A DNA stretch of 64,000 bases from positions 1 through 64,000 of the forward strand of contig NZ_QJKM01000015.1 in the NCBI RefSeq assembly GCF_003425685.1, written 5' to 3'. The notes under the pieces are model-generated. The model was not told the origin of the DNA. It saw only the letters and a list, made by a program, of their open reading frames with translations, and ran no database searches. Position 1 is the stretch's first letter. Each line of letters opens with the position of its first letter. This DNA is from Rhizobium terrae. Lineage in GTDB: Bacteria > Pseudomonadota > Alphaproteobacteria > Rhizobiales > Rhizobiaceae. This document shows positions 2,305 to 7,620 of the stretch, in pieces. The position numbers were made by a program, and so were the translations under genes.

Positions 2305-3033
2305 ATGAGCAGGGTAGCGCTGGTTTCGGGAGGCACGCGAGGCATTGGTGCGGCCATATCCGTCGCGTTGAAGGCGGCCGGCTATCGTATCGCGGCGAAC
2401 TTCGCCGGCAACGAGGAAAAGGCGAAGGCCTTTCACGACGAGACCGGCATTCCGGTCTTCAAATGGGATGTATCGCGCTACGAAGCCTGCGTCGAAGGCA
2501 TAGCCAAGGTCGAGGCAGAGCTTGGGCCGATTGAAGTTCTCGTCAACAATGCCGGCATTACCCGCGACGGCATGTTCCATAAGATGACGCCCGACCAATG
2601 GAACGAGGTGATCGGCACCAATTTGAACGGTCTCTTCAACATGACGCATCCGGTCTGGACCGGCATGCGCGACCGCGGTTTCGGCCGCATCATCAACATT
2701 TCCTCCATCAATGGCCAGAAGGGGCAGATGGGGCAGGTGAACTATTCCGCCGCGAAGGCCGGCGATCTGGGCTTCACCAAGGCGCTCGCCCAGGAAGGCG
2801 CGGCGAAGAACATTACCGTCAACGCCATCTGCCCCGGCTATATCGCCACGGAAATGGTGCGGGCCATTCCGGAAAAGGTCTTAAACGAGCGGATCATTCC
2901 CCAGATCCCTGTCGGGCGCCTCGGCGAACCGGAAGAGATCGCCCGCTGCGTCGTGTTCCTGGCCTCGGATGACGCCGGCTTCATTACCGGTTCGACACTG
3001 ACGGCCAATGGCGGACAATTTTTCGCAGGCTGA
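2305..3033 (+). CDS. phaB: Acetoacetyl-CoA reductase PhaB
   Basis: This short-chain dehydrogenase (242 residues) reduces acetoacetyl-CoA to (R)-3-hydroxybutyryl-CoA with NADPH, the second step of PHB synthesis. The Rossmann glycine motif is SGGTRGIG at residues 8-15, the structural NNAG motif is at 81-84, and the catalytic Ser134, Tyr147 and Lys151 (YSAAK) are all present. A GAAGGGG ribosome binding site precedes the ATG. It lies downstream of phaA. PhaC, the polymerase, is not in the window, which is normal for rhizobia, where it is encoded elsewhere. A general beta-ketoacyl-ACP reductase (FabG) has the same fold, but the length, the sequence and the neighbours favour PhaB. Confidence 0.95.
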   Translation: MSRVALVSGGTRGIGAAISVALKAAGYRIAANFAGNEEKAKAFHDETGIPVFKWDVSRYEACVEGIAKVEAELGPIEVLVNNAGITRDGMFHKMTPDQWNEVIGTNLNGLFNMTHPVWTGMRDRGFGRIINISSINGQKGQMGQVNYSAAKAGDLGFTKALAQEGAAKNITVNAICPGYIATEMVRAIPEKVLNERIIPQIPVGRLGEPEEIARCVVFLASDDAGFITGSTLTANGGQFFAG

Positions 3034-3131
3034 TAATAGCGTTAATCTCTGACGGCCGCTCGGTTTCGCGAAGAGCCGAAATCGCGTGGTTTATATGGTT
3101 AACAGATTGTTTTTCCACGAGATATTGTGGT

Positions 3132-3207
3132 GAACAAATCGGGAAACGAGGAATGTCGCCGATTCGTCGGCGATTCGTTCCGGCTTTGGCCAGAAGGTTA
3201 ACGGCAG
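3132..3207 (+). repeat. 76-bp direct repeat, copy A
   Basis: This non-coding stretch downstream of phaB matches 3944-4019 in the same orientation. By hand alignment there are about 13 mismatches and no gaps over 76 bases (about 83% identity). The best conserved core holds two GATTC sites 11 bases apart inside GATTCGTCGGCGATTCGTTC. It ends in TTAACGGCAG. A shorter, more diverged third copy of the core lies at 4231-4250. The function is unknown. Confidence 0.7.
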
Positions 3208-3220
3208 GTGCTTTTTGGGC

Positions 3221-3254
3221 AAAACAAAACCGGCGCCGATCGCTCGACGCCGGT
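3221..3254 (-). terminator. Rho-independent terminator of the glycine-zipper gene
   Basis: On the minus strand ACCGGCG pairs with CGCCGGT across a 12-base loop, followed by TTTGTTTTG. It lies about 25 bases past the stop codon of the glycine-zipper lipoprotein gene. Confidence 0.7.
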
Positions 3255-3277
3255 ATCTTAAAAGCAGTTGCCTGCGA

Positions 3278-3532
3278 TCAGCGGCAACGAGCCTCGTAGG
3301 TACGGCCATAGCGATCGCGGTAGACGCAGTAGCCGCGGCGCTTTTCAGATTCGCCAATCGCAGCGCCGACCAGGCCGCCTGCAACAGCGCCCACAGCAGC
3401 GCCACCCCAGCTATTGGTCACGGCACCGCCAATGACTGCGCCGGAAGCTGCGCCGATTGCCGTACCCTTCTCCGTCGAGGTGCACGACGCCAGAGCACCG
3501 ACGATGCAGCCTACAATCACAATCTTCTTCAT
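3278..3532 (-). CDS. Small glycine-zipper lipoprotein
   Basis: This 84-residue protein has a lipoprotein signal peptide ending at Cys17 (lipobox-like LASC), then a glycine-zipper segment of alternating Gly/Ala (GAVIGGAVTNSWGGAAVG and repeats) that should insert in or line a membrane. The tail is short and basic, with two cysteines (GYCVYRDRYGRTYEARCR). Small glycine-zipper (YMGG-like) envelope proteins are common in rhizobia and are often stress-induced. It lies 43 bases downstream of the DUF3309 gene on the same strand, with its own terminator, so the two probably form one transcript from the EcfG-type promoter at 3777-3801. Its specific role is unknown. Confidence 0.8.
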   Translation of the reverse strand: MKKIVIVGCIVGALASCTSTEKGTAIGAASGAVIGGAVTNSWGGAAVGAVAGGLVGAAIGESEKRRGYCVYRDRYGRTYEARCR

Positions 3533-3575
3533 GTCACTTTCCCTTCCCTTTTTTCAACAAACGGCTGCGCCGCAC

Positions 3576-3731
3576 TCAAATCCTGCCCATGAGCAGCAGA
3601 ATAATAATGATCAGGACCACGAGCCCCAATCCGCCCGATGGTCCATAACCCCAGCCTCGGCTATAGCCCCAATTCGGCAGCGCGCCAATGAGTAGCAGAA
3701 TGAGGATGATGAGCAACACGGTTCCGAGCAT
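3576..3731 (-). CDS. DUF3309-type small membrane peptide
   Basis: A 51-residue peptide read directly from the sequence. It starts MLGTVLLIILILLLIGALP, continues through a short aromatic/glycine loop (NWGYSRGWGYGPSGG), and ends with a second hydrophobic run, LGLVVLIIIILLLMGRI. Two short membrane segments joined by an aromatic-glycine loop are the hallmark of DUF3309 proteins, small inner-membrane peptides widespread in alpha- and beta-proteobacteria with no known biochemical function. A GGAG lies 10 bases before the ATG. An exact EcfG-type promoter (GGAAC-N16-CGTT) lies just upstream, which suggests induction by the general stress response. The glycine-zipper gene follows. Confidence 0.75.
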   Translation of the reverse strand: MLGTVLLIILILLLIGALPNWGYSRGWGYGPSGGLGLVVLIIIILLLMGRI

Positions 3732-3776
3732 GACTTTCTACTCCGCTGAACAAATCCGGGATGGATTTGGCGAGGA

Positions 3777-3801
3777 AACGTCGTGTCGTGGTTTTTGTTC
3801 C
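3777..3801 (-). promoter_or_regulatory. EcfG-type (general stress sigma factor) promoter
   Basis: On the minus strand GGAAC (3801-3797) is separated by 16 bases from CGTT (3780-3777). This is the consensus recognised by EcfG/RpoE2-family sigma factors of rhizobia. It lies 46 bases upstream of the DUF3309 start codon, the right place for a transcription start near 3770. Confidence 0.75.
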
Positions 3802-3943
3802 AGAAGCGCGAAAACGTGTGTTCCACAAATGGTTAAAGGCCGTTAGCGAATGTTAACATGCAGCATCTCGATTCGCTGCCGCAGATGCGCCAAGGCGTTT
3901 TTTCTTGCGTCTTTCCTTCGTGGGTCCATACCATATCTGGTAA

Positions 3944-4019
3944 GAACGAAACGGGAAAACAGAAATGTCGGCGATTCGTCAGCGATTCGTTCCGCCTTTG
4001 ACCTGATTCTTAACGGCAG
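3944..4019 (+). repeat. 76-bp direct repeat, copy B
   Basis: Second copy of the element at 3132-3207, about 83% identical by hand alignment and in the same orientation, 812 bases downstream. The GATTC-containing core and the TTAACGGCAG end are conserved; weaker similarity continues some 15 bases upstream. It sits in the gene-free stretch before the helicase gene. Confidence 0.7.
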
Positions 4020-4079
4020 CGAAGATTGCCTTGCAAGTCGGCAGATCTGTTGAAAAAAGATTAACCATATCAGTGGATT

Positions 4080-4318
4080 GACTCTTCGGATTCTTTCTGA
4101 GACTCGCGATTCCGATGCCTCCGGTTTCTCCCAACCCCCGATTCCCCGGGCTGATTCATGATGTCGTGGAGGGAGGACGAGTCACATCAAGATATAGCCG
4201 TGAACAAAGGCTGAATCGTCTTGAGTCTTCGATTCGTCGCCGATTCGTTCGCATCTGTTCCTTGATCCCTAAAAGGCGAATCGTTCAAGTCGCGCCGGAC
4301 GGTTGGATTTGATGATTC
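4080..4318. other. Cluster of GANTC (CcrM methylation) sites in a gene-free stretch
   Basis: Between the DUF3309 gene and the helicase there is about 700 bases without a convincing gene. Its second half holds twelve GANTC sites, beginning at 4080, 4089, 4101, 4108, 4140, 4153, 4213, 4223, 4231, 4242, 4278 and 4314. About one would be expected in 239 bases. Three more are in and next to the repeat at 3973-4009. GANTC is the target of the cell-cycle methyltransferase CcrM in alphaproteobacteria. Spacings of 7-13 bases within sub-clusters suggest a cooperative or methylation-sensitive site. The function is not known. Confidence 0.6.
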
Positions 4319-4452
4319 TCCCGGCGTAAAACCCTTCTTCAGGCTTGCGTTTGCCGGCAGGGATCGCCATGTGTTGCGTGGCTTGCAATTTGCGGAAATC
4401 CCGACCGCAGGCCGAATGTGATGCGCGGATCTTGGTTTTGAACTTCCAGCCC

Positions 4453-7400
4453 ATGATGCTCAGCGGGCGCGGCGTCACCGCCGTTCTCGGACCCACCAAT
4501 ACCGGCAAGACCCATTACGCCATCGAACGCATGGTGGCGCATGGCACCGGTGTGATCGGCCTGCCGCTGCGGCTGCTGGCCCGCGAGGTCTATACGCGTC
4601 TTGTCGAAAAGGTCGGCGTTTCGCAGGTGGCGCTCGTTACCGGGGAAGAAAAGATCACGCCGGCGAATGCCCGTTTTTCCGTCTGCACCGTGGAAGCGAT
4701 GCCGCGCGAGACCCGAGCTTCGTTCGTCGCGATCGACGAGGTGCAGCTCGCCGGCGATCTGGAGCGCGGTCATATCTTCACCGACCGCATCCTGCATCTG
4801 CGCGGTCGCGACGAGACGCTGCTGCTCGGCGCCGGGACCATGCAGCCTATTCTTGAAAAACTGCTGCCCGGAATCAATGTGATCGAGCGGCCCCGCCTTT
4901 CGCAGCTCTTTTACGCCGGCCAGAAGAAAATCACCCGGCTGCCGCAGCGTTCGGCGATCGTGGCCTTCTCGGCTGACGAGGTCTATGCGATCGCCGAGCT
5001 GATCCGCCGCCAGCGGGGAGGCGCCGCCGTCGTGCTCGGCGCGCTCAGCCCGAGAACCCGCAACGCGCAGGTCGGACTCTATCAGTCCGGCGATGTCGAA
5101 TATCTGGTCGCGACCGATGCGATCGGGATGGGGCTCAATCTCGACGTCGACCATGTGGCCTTCGCCCAGGACCGAAAATTCGACGGGTACCAGTTCCGCA
5201 ATCTCAATCCGGGCGAACTCGGCCAGATCGCCGGCCGCGCCGGCCGACACGTCCGGGACGGGACGTTCGGCGTGACGGGCCAGGTCGCGCCTTTCGACGA
5301 TGAGCTTGTGGAGCGAATCGAAAGCCATCAGTTCGATCAGGTGAAAGTGCTTCAGTGGCGGTCGAAAAATCTCGATTTTTCCTCACTCAAGGCTTTGCGC
5401 GACAGCCTGGACGCTGCTCCGACGATCCCAGGGCTTTCCCGGGCGCTTCCTGCCACGGATAGCCAGGCATTCGATCACCTTTCCCGCTATCCGGAAATCA
5501 AGGATGTGGCGACCACGCCGGACCGGGTCGAAAAGCTGTGGGAGGCCTGCGCGCTGCCCGACTATCGCAGAATCGCGCCGGCGCAGCATGCGGACCTTAT
5601 TTCGACTCTTTTTTCCGATCTTGTGCGCCGAGGCACGGTAAACGAAGATTTCATGGCGGAGCAGGTCCGCCGCGCCGACAGGACGGACGGCGAAATCGAC
5701 ACCTTATCCGCCCGCATCGCGCAAATCCGAACCTGGACCTATGTCTCGAACCGCCCTGGCTGGCTTGCTGATCCGACACACTGGCAAGAAAAGACGCGGG
5801 AAATAGAGGATAGGTTGTCGGACGCGCTACATGAAAGGTTGACGAAACGCTTTGTTGATCGCAGGACATCTGTGCTCATGAAGCGCCTGAGAGAGAATGC
5901 GATGCTGGAAGCTGAAATCAGTGTGAATGGCGATGTCTTTGTGGAGGGACATCACGTCGGGCAGTTGGCCGGGTTCCGGTTCACGCCTGTCGCGGGAGCG
6001 GAAGGCCCCGACGCCAAGGCCGTGCAGACGGCCGCCCAGAAAGCTCTGGCGCTTGAATTCGAGGCGCGTGCTGCGAGACTGTATGCCTCGGGCAACAGCG
6101 ATCTTGCCGTCGGCTCCGACGGTTTCGTGCGCTGGGTGGGCGATCCCGTCGCCCGCCTTTCTGCAAGCGATCACATCATGCATCCGCGGGTCATCCTGCT
6201 GTCCGACGAACAACTGACCGGCAATGCGCGCGAACATGTGGTTGCCCGCATCGAACGCTTCGTCAATCATCATATCGCAACAGTCCTGAAGCCGCTCGAC
6301 GACCTGTCGCGGGCCGAAGACCTGCAGGGGCTGGCCAAGGGGCTTGCTTTCCAGCTCGTCGAAAATCTCGGCGTGCTCTTCCGGCGCGACGTCGCCGACG
6401 ATGTCAAGACGCTCGATCAGGATGCCCGCGCTTCGATGCGCCGTTATGGCATCCGTTTCGGCGCCTATCACGTCTTCATGCCGGCGCTGCTGAAGCCGGC
6501 CCCGGCCGAACTCATCACGCTGCTCTGGGCGCTGAAGAACGACGGACTGGACAAGCCGGGTTATGGTGACCTCATTCCGGCGCTTGCCGCGGGCCGCACT
6601 TCGGTCGTAGCCGACCCAACCTTCGAACGGATGTTCTACAAGCTCGCTGGCTTCCGTTTTCTCGGCAAACGTGCGGTGCGGATCGATATCCTCGAGCGCC
6701 TTGCAGATCTTATTCGTCCGCTCCTGCAGTGGAAGCCCGGCGGCACGCCGCGTCCTGAAGGCGCTTATGACGGCCGCCGCTTCATGACCACGACGGCCAT
6801 GCTCTCCATTCTCGGCGCGACGCCGGACGATATGGAAGAGATCCTCAAGGGTCTCGGTTATCGCGCCGATTCAGTAAAGGCCGAAGAGGCCCAGGCTTTC
6901 CTGGCGGCCCAGGGTGCTGCTGCAGCCGGGGCTGTAACAGCTCCTCCCGTGGAGGCGTCCGAAGCTTCCGTGGGGGATGATGCGGATGCCGGTGAAACCA
7001 GCGAAGCGTCGTCTGAAGAGACCGCGGTTGCGGCAGCGGTAGAAGAGGCTGCGGTCGCTGCCCCGGAAGAGGCTGCTGCGGCACAACCCGAAGGTACCGA
7101 CGCTGCTCTTGCGGAGCGGACCTCTGAAGCGGTGGCGACGGCTGAGGTGGAAGAACCGAAGCCCGTGCTCCTGTGGCGTCCGGGCGGTGGTCGCGAAAAC
7201 AATCAGCGTGGCGGGCGTCCGCAGCATGGCGACCGTCGTGGGCATGGCAGGCAGCGCAATGCCGGTGGCGAAGCGGGTCAGCCCGCCACCCAAGGCCGTC
7301 GAGACGACCGCCGTGGCGGCGAGCGGCGTGACGGCGAGCGACGCGACGCGCGCCCGAACGGCGAACAAGGCGATCGCAATCGCCGGGACGGAGGCAAGCC

Positions 7401-7620
7401 GAACCGCGACAACAATCGCCGCCCGGACAACAACAACCGGAGCGACCGTCCGAACCGCGGCGACCGTCCGGAAGGCGGTCCGCGGCCCGACCGGAGCGAT
7501 CGCGGCAAAGCGCCGCAGCCGGCTCGTTTCGAGGCCAAGCCGCCCCGCAAGGAAAAGCCGATCGATCCGGATTCACCTTTCGCAAAGCTCGCTGCTCTCA
7601 AAGAGCAGATGAAGAAGTGA
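4453..7620 (+). CDS. SUV3-like ATP-dependent RNA helicase
   Basis: This is a superfamily 2 helicase related to mitochondrial SUV3 and standard in alphaproteobacteria, probably acting on RNA. With the ATG at 4453 it is about 1055 residues. Walker A is GPTNTGKT at 13-20, the DEVQ Walker B at about 95-98, and the C-terminal helicase motif IAGRAGRHVRDG is near 260. A SUV3-type C-terminal region follows. From about residue 830 the chain becomes Ala/Glu-rich and then, from about 905, an Arg/Gly/Asn/Asp-rich low-complexity tail of some 130 residues, before a short conserved end (FAKLAALKEQMKK). The frame is open upstream to a TTG at 4345 and there is no strong ribosome binding site, so the start is uncertain. 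The S4 protein gene begins four bases after the stop. Confidence 0.88.
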   Translation: MMLSGRGVTAVLGPTNTGKTHYAIERMVAHGTGVIGLPLRLLAREVYTRLVEKVGVSQVALVTGEEKITPANARFSVCTVEAMPRETRASFVAIDEVQLAGDLERGHIFTDRILHLRGRDETLLLGAGTMQPILEKLLPGINVIERPRLSQLFYAGQKKITRLPQRSAIVAFSADEVYAIAELIRRQRGGAAVVLGALSPRTRNAQVGLYQSGDVEYLVATDAIGMGLNLDVDHVAFAQDRKFDGYQFRNLNPGELGQIAGRAGRHVRDGTFGVTGQVAPFDDELVERIESHQFDQVKVLQWRSKNLDFSSLKALRDSLDAAPTIPGLSRALPATDSQAFDHLSRYPEIKDVATTPDRVEKLWEACALPDYRRIAPAQHADLISTLFSDLVRRGTVNEDFMAEQVRRADRTDGEIDTLSARIAQIRTWTYVSNRPGWLADPTHWQEKTREIEDRLSDALHERLTKRFVDRRTSVLMKRLRENAMLEAEISVNGDVFVEGHHVGQLAGFRFTPVAGAEGPDAKAVQTAAQKALALEFEARAARLYASGNSDLAVGSDGFVRWVGDPVARLSASDHIMHPRVILLSDEQLTGNAREHVVARIERFVNHHIATVLKPLDDLSRAEDLQGLAKGLAFQLVENLGVLFRRDVADDVKTLDQDARASMRRYGIRFGAYHVFMPALLKPAPAELITLLWALKNDGLDKPGYGDLIPALAAGRTSVVADPTFERMFYKLAGFRFLGKRAVRIDILERLADLIRPLLQWKPGGTPRPEGAYDGRRFMTTTAMLSILGATPDDMEEILKGLGYRADSVKAEEAQAFLAAQGAAAAGAVTAPPVEASEASVGDDADAGETSEASSEETAVAAAVEEAAVAAPEEAAAAQPEGTDAALAERTSEAVATAEVEEPKPVLLWRPGGGRENNQRGGRPQHGDRRGHGRQRNAGGEAGQPATQGRRDDRRGGERRDGERRDARPNGEQGDRNRRDGGKPNRDNNRRPDNNNRSDRPNRGDRPEGGPRPDRSDRGKAPQPARFEAKPPRKEKPIDPDSPFAKLAALKEQMKK

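Follow-up and report, generated by a model that had tools for sequence, protein, structure and literature searches.

A repeated GANTC-rich element with LexA-like and NrdR-like boxes upstream of a Suv3-like helicase gene in Rhizobium terrae

Results

The stretch of DNA analysed here (hereafter the window) comprises 64,000 nucleotides of Rhizobium terrae, and the features considered lie near its beginning, upstream of a gene for a Suv3-like helicase that is followed by an S4-domain gene, fdxA and carD (Table 1). Only short ORFs are found between 3732 and 4452, a region where an earlier note had pointed out twelve GANTC sites in 239 bases; the density is as described, but the number within 4080-4318 is 13 (4080, 4089, 4101, 4108, 4140, 4153, 4179, 4213, 4223, 4231, 4242, 4278 and 4314). 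The three additional sites that it placed at 3973-4009 are present, at 3973, 3984 and 4005. The cluster belongs to a more extensive repetitive structure, starting at about 3117. Self-comparison of 3000-4400 returned two to three direct copies of a sequence 61 to 76 bp long, and the cluster is built round an element of approximately 74 bp, with the consensus CnAtATnTnGcnGtGAACAAAnnnnGAAnnnnnnngaGTCagCGATTCGTCgccGATTCGTTCcgncttTGntC, that occurs here in three direct copies. Between copies 1 and 2 lie two small minus-strand genes (3278-3532 and 3576-3731; glycine zipper, DUF3309). In several other rhizobia the element copies are much closer together than these two.

Table 1. Features upstream of the helicase gene (window coordinates)
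Feature	Position	Strand	Remarks
Element copy 1 (distal)	3117..3191	+	NrdR-like box 3115-3130; GATTC 3161, 3172
LexA-like boxes of copy 1	3132-3146, 3177-3191	+, -	
Element copy 2 (distal)	3930..4003	+	GATTC 3973, 3984; NrdR-like box shifted by 1-base gap, low score
LexA-like boxes of copy 2	3944-3958, 3989-4003	+, -	
Peripheral GANTC sites (7)	4080..4183	.	includes GATTC 4153 (-78 relative to the core), whose position many relatives share
NrdR-like box 1, proximal copy	4154..4169	+	weak in the window, score 0.8
NrdR-like box 2, proximal copy	4185..4200	+	31 bp downstream of box 1; score 7.2
Element copy 3 (helicase-proximal)	4187..4260	+	GANTC 4213, 4223, 4231, 4242; spacings 10, 8, 11 bp
Left LexA-like box, proximal copy	4202..4216	+	GAAC-N7-GAA(T); score 3.2 in the window
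Two core GATTC sites	4231..4246	+	both CGATTCG (GcrA motif YGAKTCK)
Facing LexA-like box, proximal copy	4247..4260	-	GTTC-N6-GTTC
Two more peripheral GANTC sites	4278..4318	.	4278, 4314
Promoter-like TTGCGT-N17-CATGTG	4344..4374	+	spacing kept in 52/74 loci
Suv3-like helicase gene	4453..7620	+	start codon set by comparison with relatives

Site counts mark the patch as exceptional. The 64 kb as a whole is depleted in GANTC (101 sites observed, 370.5 expected from dinucleotide shuffles, s.d. 20.3), and outside 3100-4320 its densest 239-bp window holds three. Beyond the window, no 239-bp stretch of the same genome exceeded four sites in the 1,015,775 bases scanned (C1:1-400 kb, C23:1-400 kb, C7:64-200 kb and four 20-kb stretches; about 1.0 of 6.97 Mb). 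The region upstream of recA (C23:196997) is among just seven places in 800 kb of this genome that reach four sites per 239 bp, which suggests that GANTC may accompany LexA sites more generally.

In the whole genome of R. terrae the core pattern of the element has three exact matches, all at this locus, and a sequence-only model finds the same three; elsewhere there are two matches with three mismatches. A dispersed intergenic repeat was therefore rejected. The strict spaced pattern GATTC-N11-GTTC-N7-GTTC was not found elsewhere in 1.08 Mb of the genome. Other candidate identities were also discarded: a known structured RNA (no Rfam match up to E 1 in 3000-4700); a GAACAAA/TTCGTTC hairpin, the arms of which are mismatched in most copies by column counts; and a plasmid origin of the region, for which no record covered 80% of the query, the best being a Rhizobium plasmid (H1) at 68% and the other top matches mainly reflecting phaB. 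CtrA sites are not claimed because exact TTAA-N7-TTAA occurs near only 2 of 74 proximal copies. The chromosomal origin oriC was rejected as well, since the locus does not adjoin hemE but lies roughly 50-290 kb from it in five genomes.

A profile made from the three window copies and iterated was searched against 80 named Rhizobiaceae loci with the orthologous helicase, plus the window. It gave 172 matches, 170 of them on the helicase strand, in the window and 76 of the named loci; L039, L040, L045 and L073 had none. Among these 77 sources, 25 carry one copy, 21 carry two, another 21 carry three and ten carry four. The sequence-only model, run on 60 genomes, placed a match next to the helicase in 32 of 36 genomes of the same genus (R. 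terrae included), and in the remaining four (G006, G017, G019 and G021) a second profile search was likewise empty. Named loci and genomes overlap (L001, G022), so these two sets of counts are not independent. The cluster is thus non-random and kept upstream of the orthologous gene in relatives.

Beyond the Rhizobiaceae, strict GATTC-N11-GTTC-N7-GTTC stands upstream of the helicase in 15 of 24 genomes from the order's other families, and in 17 of 26 once two further order members, both positive, are added. It is present in the 1.4-Mb genome G038 (L160), whereas G042 has a degenerate form and eight of the 24 lack the element by eye (G036, G043, G044, G046, G051, G053, G057 and G059). In a class-wide draw, a Suv3-like helicase was found in 120 of 190 genomes, and 20 of the upstream regions were examined, two from the order and 18 from outside it. 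Two of these 18 (L257 and L262) contain the strict motif and seven the relaxed one (the same two with L256, L258, L260, L261 and L269); L269 has a complete element some 560 bp upstream of the helicase, L253 only the right half, and the other genomes outside the order show no clear element, which is absent in at least 10 of the 18. Altogether, 19 of the 44 genomes examined beyond the family have the strict spaced motif upstream of the helicase gene. The element is thus repeated one to four times upstream of the Suv3-like helicase gene in Rhizobiaceae and present at least once in some other Alphaproteobacteria sampled. In our judgement, it would seem unusual for noncoding sequence of this length to be conserved across alphaproteobacterial orders.

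Conserved letters were compared with known binding sites by means of matrices derived solely from other promoters; the scan took in all offsets between -200 and +59. The proximal set consists of 74 copies from the 77 sources, with L046, L054 and L057 left out as they have no copy within 330 bp of the helicase gene. The distal set comprises 88 of the other 96 plus-strand copies, chosen for GATTCG at the expected place; the G after site 3 in this set is therefore given by construction, while consensus column counts are unaffected. A LexA matrix from 20 boxes (recA promoters of 10 genomes and the lexA promoter of R. terrae) peaked in the proximal copies at +15 on the minus strand (70/74 above 4, z 7.8), followed by +4 minus (74/74, z 6.6) and -29 plus (68/74, z 6.4), and it peaked at the same three offsets in the distal copies. 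Nine canonical boxes alone yielded these offsets too; the GAACAA-N5-GTAC sequences of recA promoters had been taken as LexA boxes by judgement, and dropping them does not alter the result. Exact GTTC-N7-GTTC at +16 distinguishes proximal copies (65/74) from distal ones (3/88), which more often have GTTC-N7-GATC (32/88). Scores in the three window copies, 3.1-13.7, are below the mean of the training boxes (21.3), and the left box has GAAC as its second half in only 13 of 74 copies.

A lexA gene is present in R. terrae. Among the 44 genomes from outside the family it exceeds the cut-off in 40, the exceptions being G037, G041, G043 and G158. Two of these, G037 and G041 (92% and 94% complete), do carry the strict motif, which speaks against LexA as ligand. 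In G043 neither lexA nor nrdR was found, and the element is absent too; G158, with the right half of the element only, is without nrdR and has lexA below the cut-off. From the matrix matches, LexA is a likely ligand of the element. The GTTC-N7-GTTC box of LexA can overlap GANTC, which has been offered as the explanation for conserved GANTC at SOS genes in a passage of PMC7987155.

The NrdR matrix was made from 15 boxes in the nrdJ promoters of five Rhizobiaceae. Its best offsets in the proximal copies were -43 (37/74 above 6) and -74 (25/74), 31 bp apart, and in the distal copies -43 only (71/88). In all five of these Rhizobiaceae, a lone near-perfect palindrome, CCACAATATCTTGTGG, lies about 245 bp upstream of the nrdJ NrdR box pair (L180 near 506, L177 near 503, and the reverse strands of L175, L176 and L179); dropping it from the matrix left the paired result unchanged. 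Of the same 44 genomes from outside the family, 42 have nrdR over the cut-off. Several observations count against NrdR, among them the low share of proximal copies in which box 1 passes 6. Permuted palindromic matrices, run on every third proximal copy, also produced a 31/32-bp pair in 23 of 200 cases; of 24 loci from outside the family, only 4 have a partner box scoring above 0; and according to a passage of PMC12051234 NrdR requires a pair of boxes separated by a 14-17-bp spacer, whereas distal copies show one. NrdR is a possible ligand on these matches, and the weakest part of the composite reading discussed below.

The GANTC sites of the element behave in two ways. At the core, the letter before both GATTC sites is C or T in all 171 copies with a letter there, against 44% for Y before GATTCG in 936 kb of control genome sequence, and the next letter is G in 169 of 170 copies at one site and 169 of 169 at the other. 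A recount on the 74 proximal and 88 distal copies gave the same picture. These sites match the GcrA motif YGAKTCK as quoted in PMC7987155, which makes methylation sensitivity plausible. All four core GANTC are present in 42 of 74 proximal copies, and single changes at the core comprised 36 at fixed letters and none at N alone. Peripheral sites are barely enriched for the extended motif (128/425 compared with 299/1213), and a GcrA motif was therefore rejected for them. Outside the core, however, 368 N-only changes were counted against 118 at fixed letters, a per-position ratio of 12.5, with 3.15 for the best of 14 other gapped palindromes. This test covered 44 of the 77 sources, and alignment bias towards dense GANTC is possible. 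Under a flank-identity filter the ratio was 8-10 over 7-15 columns, ranking GANTC second of 247, third of 236 and fourth of 217 patterns; variation in the higher-ranked ones is confined to 1-3 columns, while GANTC varies at 15, 12 and 7. As the N drifts while GANTC is kept, GANTC itself seems to be selected outside the core, and the peripheral sites seem to be maintained in the form GANTC, which would be expected of methylation targets.

A general helical phasing of GANTC was rejected, as it is striking in L150 (G054) only and weak when pooled; in that genome, 370 bp upstream of the helicase, ten peripheral sites fall at multiples of about 10.5 bp (R 0.96, n 10). The same genome has a second cluster across hemE from the helicase copy (L149, about 2900-3700, minus strand), with degenerate element-like copies between convergent aceE-like and RNase T2-like genes; these are weak model matches (E 0.15-0.44) read by eye.

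Discussion

The GANTC cluster is special and likely protein-binding, as first proposed. With modest confidence, somewhat better than an even chance, we take it to be the conspicuous portion of a composite operator array that serves the helicase and joins SOS, dNTP and methylation inputs. From left to right, each copy would comprise an NrdR-like box, a LexA-like box, one or two YGATTCG sites and a facing LexA-like box; in the proximal copy the NrdR-like box becomes a 31-bp-spaced pair, and further GANTC sites surround the element. A composite operator for the helicase operon is in our best reading the most economical account of what was observed, namely repetition, conservation, position, matches to matrices from other promoters and the constraint on GANTC outside the core. 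The binding proteins, the direction of their effect, the influence of methylation and the helicase as target of the regulation are inferred from these patterns.

A mechanism is proposed where LexA and dATP-loaded NrdR would hold the helicase operon low in undisturbed cells, and either DNA damage, through LexA cleavage, or low dNTPs, through NrdR release, would lift repression. Methylation of GATTC, full or half after fork passage, would set the action of GcrA-sigma70 and could thereby couple expression to replication; methylation is probably one of several inputs to the element.

Comparison with the known systems brings out both the likeness and the departures. Alphaproteobacterial LexA (SOS) operators share the exact GTTC-N7-GTTC that most proximal copies have at one offset, but the element has two facing boxes and an overlapping third in a block of about 74 bp, in up to four copies, with a degenerate left box and N6 spacing in the genome of R. 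terrae. NrdR box pairs of ribonucleotide reductase promoters may have a counterpart in the proximal copy, with a 16-bp palindrome and a 15-bp linker (boxes 31 bp apart), the dimensions given for E. coli in a passage of PMC12176259, whereas the element fronts a helicase gene and has a single box in distal copies and at most loci outside the family. A table in PMC5343134 lists the NrdR regulon of Proteobacteria as deoxyribonucleotide biosynthesis (last column 3.2, which we read as genes per regulon), so a helicase target would extend it. GcrA/CcrM-controlled promoters carry methylated YGAKTCK, and the core sites of the element are likewise YGATTCG; here, though, they stand between LexA-like boxes and amid many GANTC hardly enriched for the extended motif. 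ChIP peaks of Brucella GcrA, enriched in GANTC, include lexA and uvrA as described in PMC6813329.

Several observations run against a composite operator. Copy 1 is flanked by convergent genes, the promoter-like sequence comes downstream of the operator candidates, and the element is absent upstream of many helicase genes. In the window and seven other sources the facing LexA-like box has N6 spacing, and the left box of the window's proximal copy scores only 3.2.

Plain GcrA/CcrM promoter control, in which methylated GANTC alone would time helicase transcription and the LexA-like and NrdR-like letters would be by-products, is the strongest alternative, although we consider it unlikely. The YGATTCG core, the retention of GANTC with a free N round it and the four core sites shared by 42 of 74 proximal copies would all follow from such control, but conservation extends far beyond GANTC, with GAAC, GTTC and the left palindrome at fixed offsets, and GANTC is sparse in several families that retain the element (L159, L160 and L165, for instance). 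The earlier note had suggested a methylation-sensitive promoter or a protein-binding locus, and this is supported in part; the YGAKTCK core and the free N outside it agree with methylation, whereas the core N never varies alone, the conserved letters there are those of LexA-like and NrdR-like boxes, and the promoter-like sequence lies downstream of the cluster.

The element could instead be a non-promoter chromosomal site, an origin-proximal array of GANTC and protein read in the half-methylated state for SeqA-like sequestration, segregation or organisation. SeqA binds GATC clusters, which are dense methylation targets, in gammaproteobacteria. Such clusters and the present locus have this density in common, helically phased here in one genome (L150), but the sequence is GATC there and GANTC here, and we know of no reader protein for GANTC clusters. 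Proximity to the origin (in five genomes hemE is about 50-290 kb away), direct copies numbering up to four with one of them between convergent genes, the second degenerate cluster between convergent genes in G054 and the strong phasing in L150 (R 0.96, n 10) are what such a site might display. Against it, the element accompanies the helicase gene in many families at varying distances from hemE, pooled phasing is weak, and the motifs look like transcription-factor boxes. SeqA itself is known only from gammaproteobacteria, according to a passage in PMC5172544. A chromosomal site is unlikely, a little less probable than plain GcrA/CcrM control.

It is improbable that one hypothetical DNA-binding protein reads the whole element of about 74 bp through GAAC-type half-sites at 11-bp steps, with LexA and NrdR uninvolved. 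Half-sites of this type do recur every 11 bp on either strand, in 61 of 74 copies the second half-site on the left is not GAAC, and two element-bearing genomes have no lexA over the cut-off, but independent LexA and NrdR matrices land on the conserved positions. Chance clustering or a base-composition artefact, in whose favour no point was found, has next to no probability and is refuted by the 13 sites, where 1.0 Mb of the same genome has at most four per 239 bp, together with conservation across families.

The composite operator may belong to something broader, and here we are tentative, a wider claim that we consider doubtful though worth stating: an ancient replication-stress switch of Alphaproteobacteria, in which LexA, NrdR and CcrM-dependent GcrA would share one target of approximately 100 bp, present in as many as four copies, and a Suv3-type helicase would be produced only if damage, dNTP level and fork passage all concur. 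No account of the element was recognised among the papers that searches of an open-access library listed. If such an operator or switch exists, SOS, the dNTP pool and CcrM methylation, each studied separately, would be joined in one small operator. NrdR would have a target outside ribonucleotide reductase, and a Suv3-family helicase would enter the DNA-damage and replication network. Selection would maintain the GANTC array, possibly read half-methylated by a hypothetical SeqA-like factor, and the locus would offer a compact place for asking whether GANTC methylation alters the action of LexA or GcrA.
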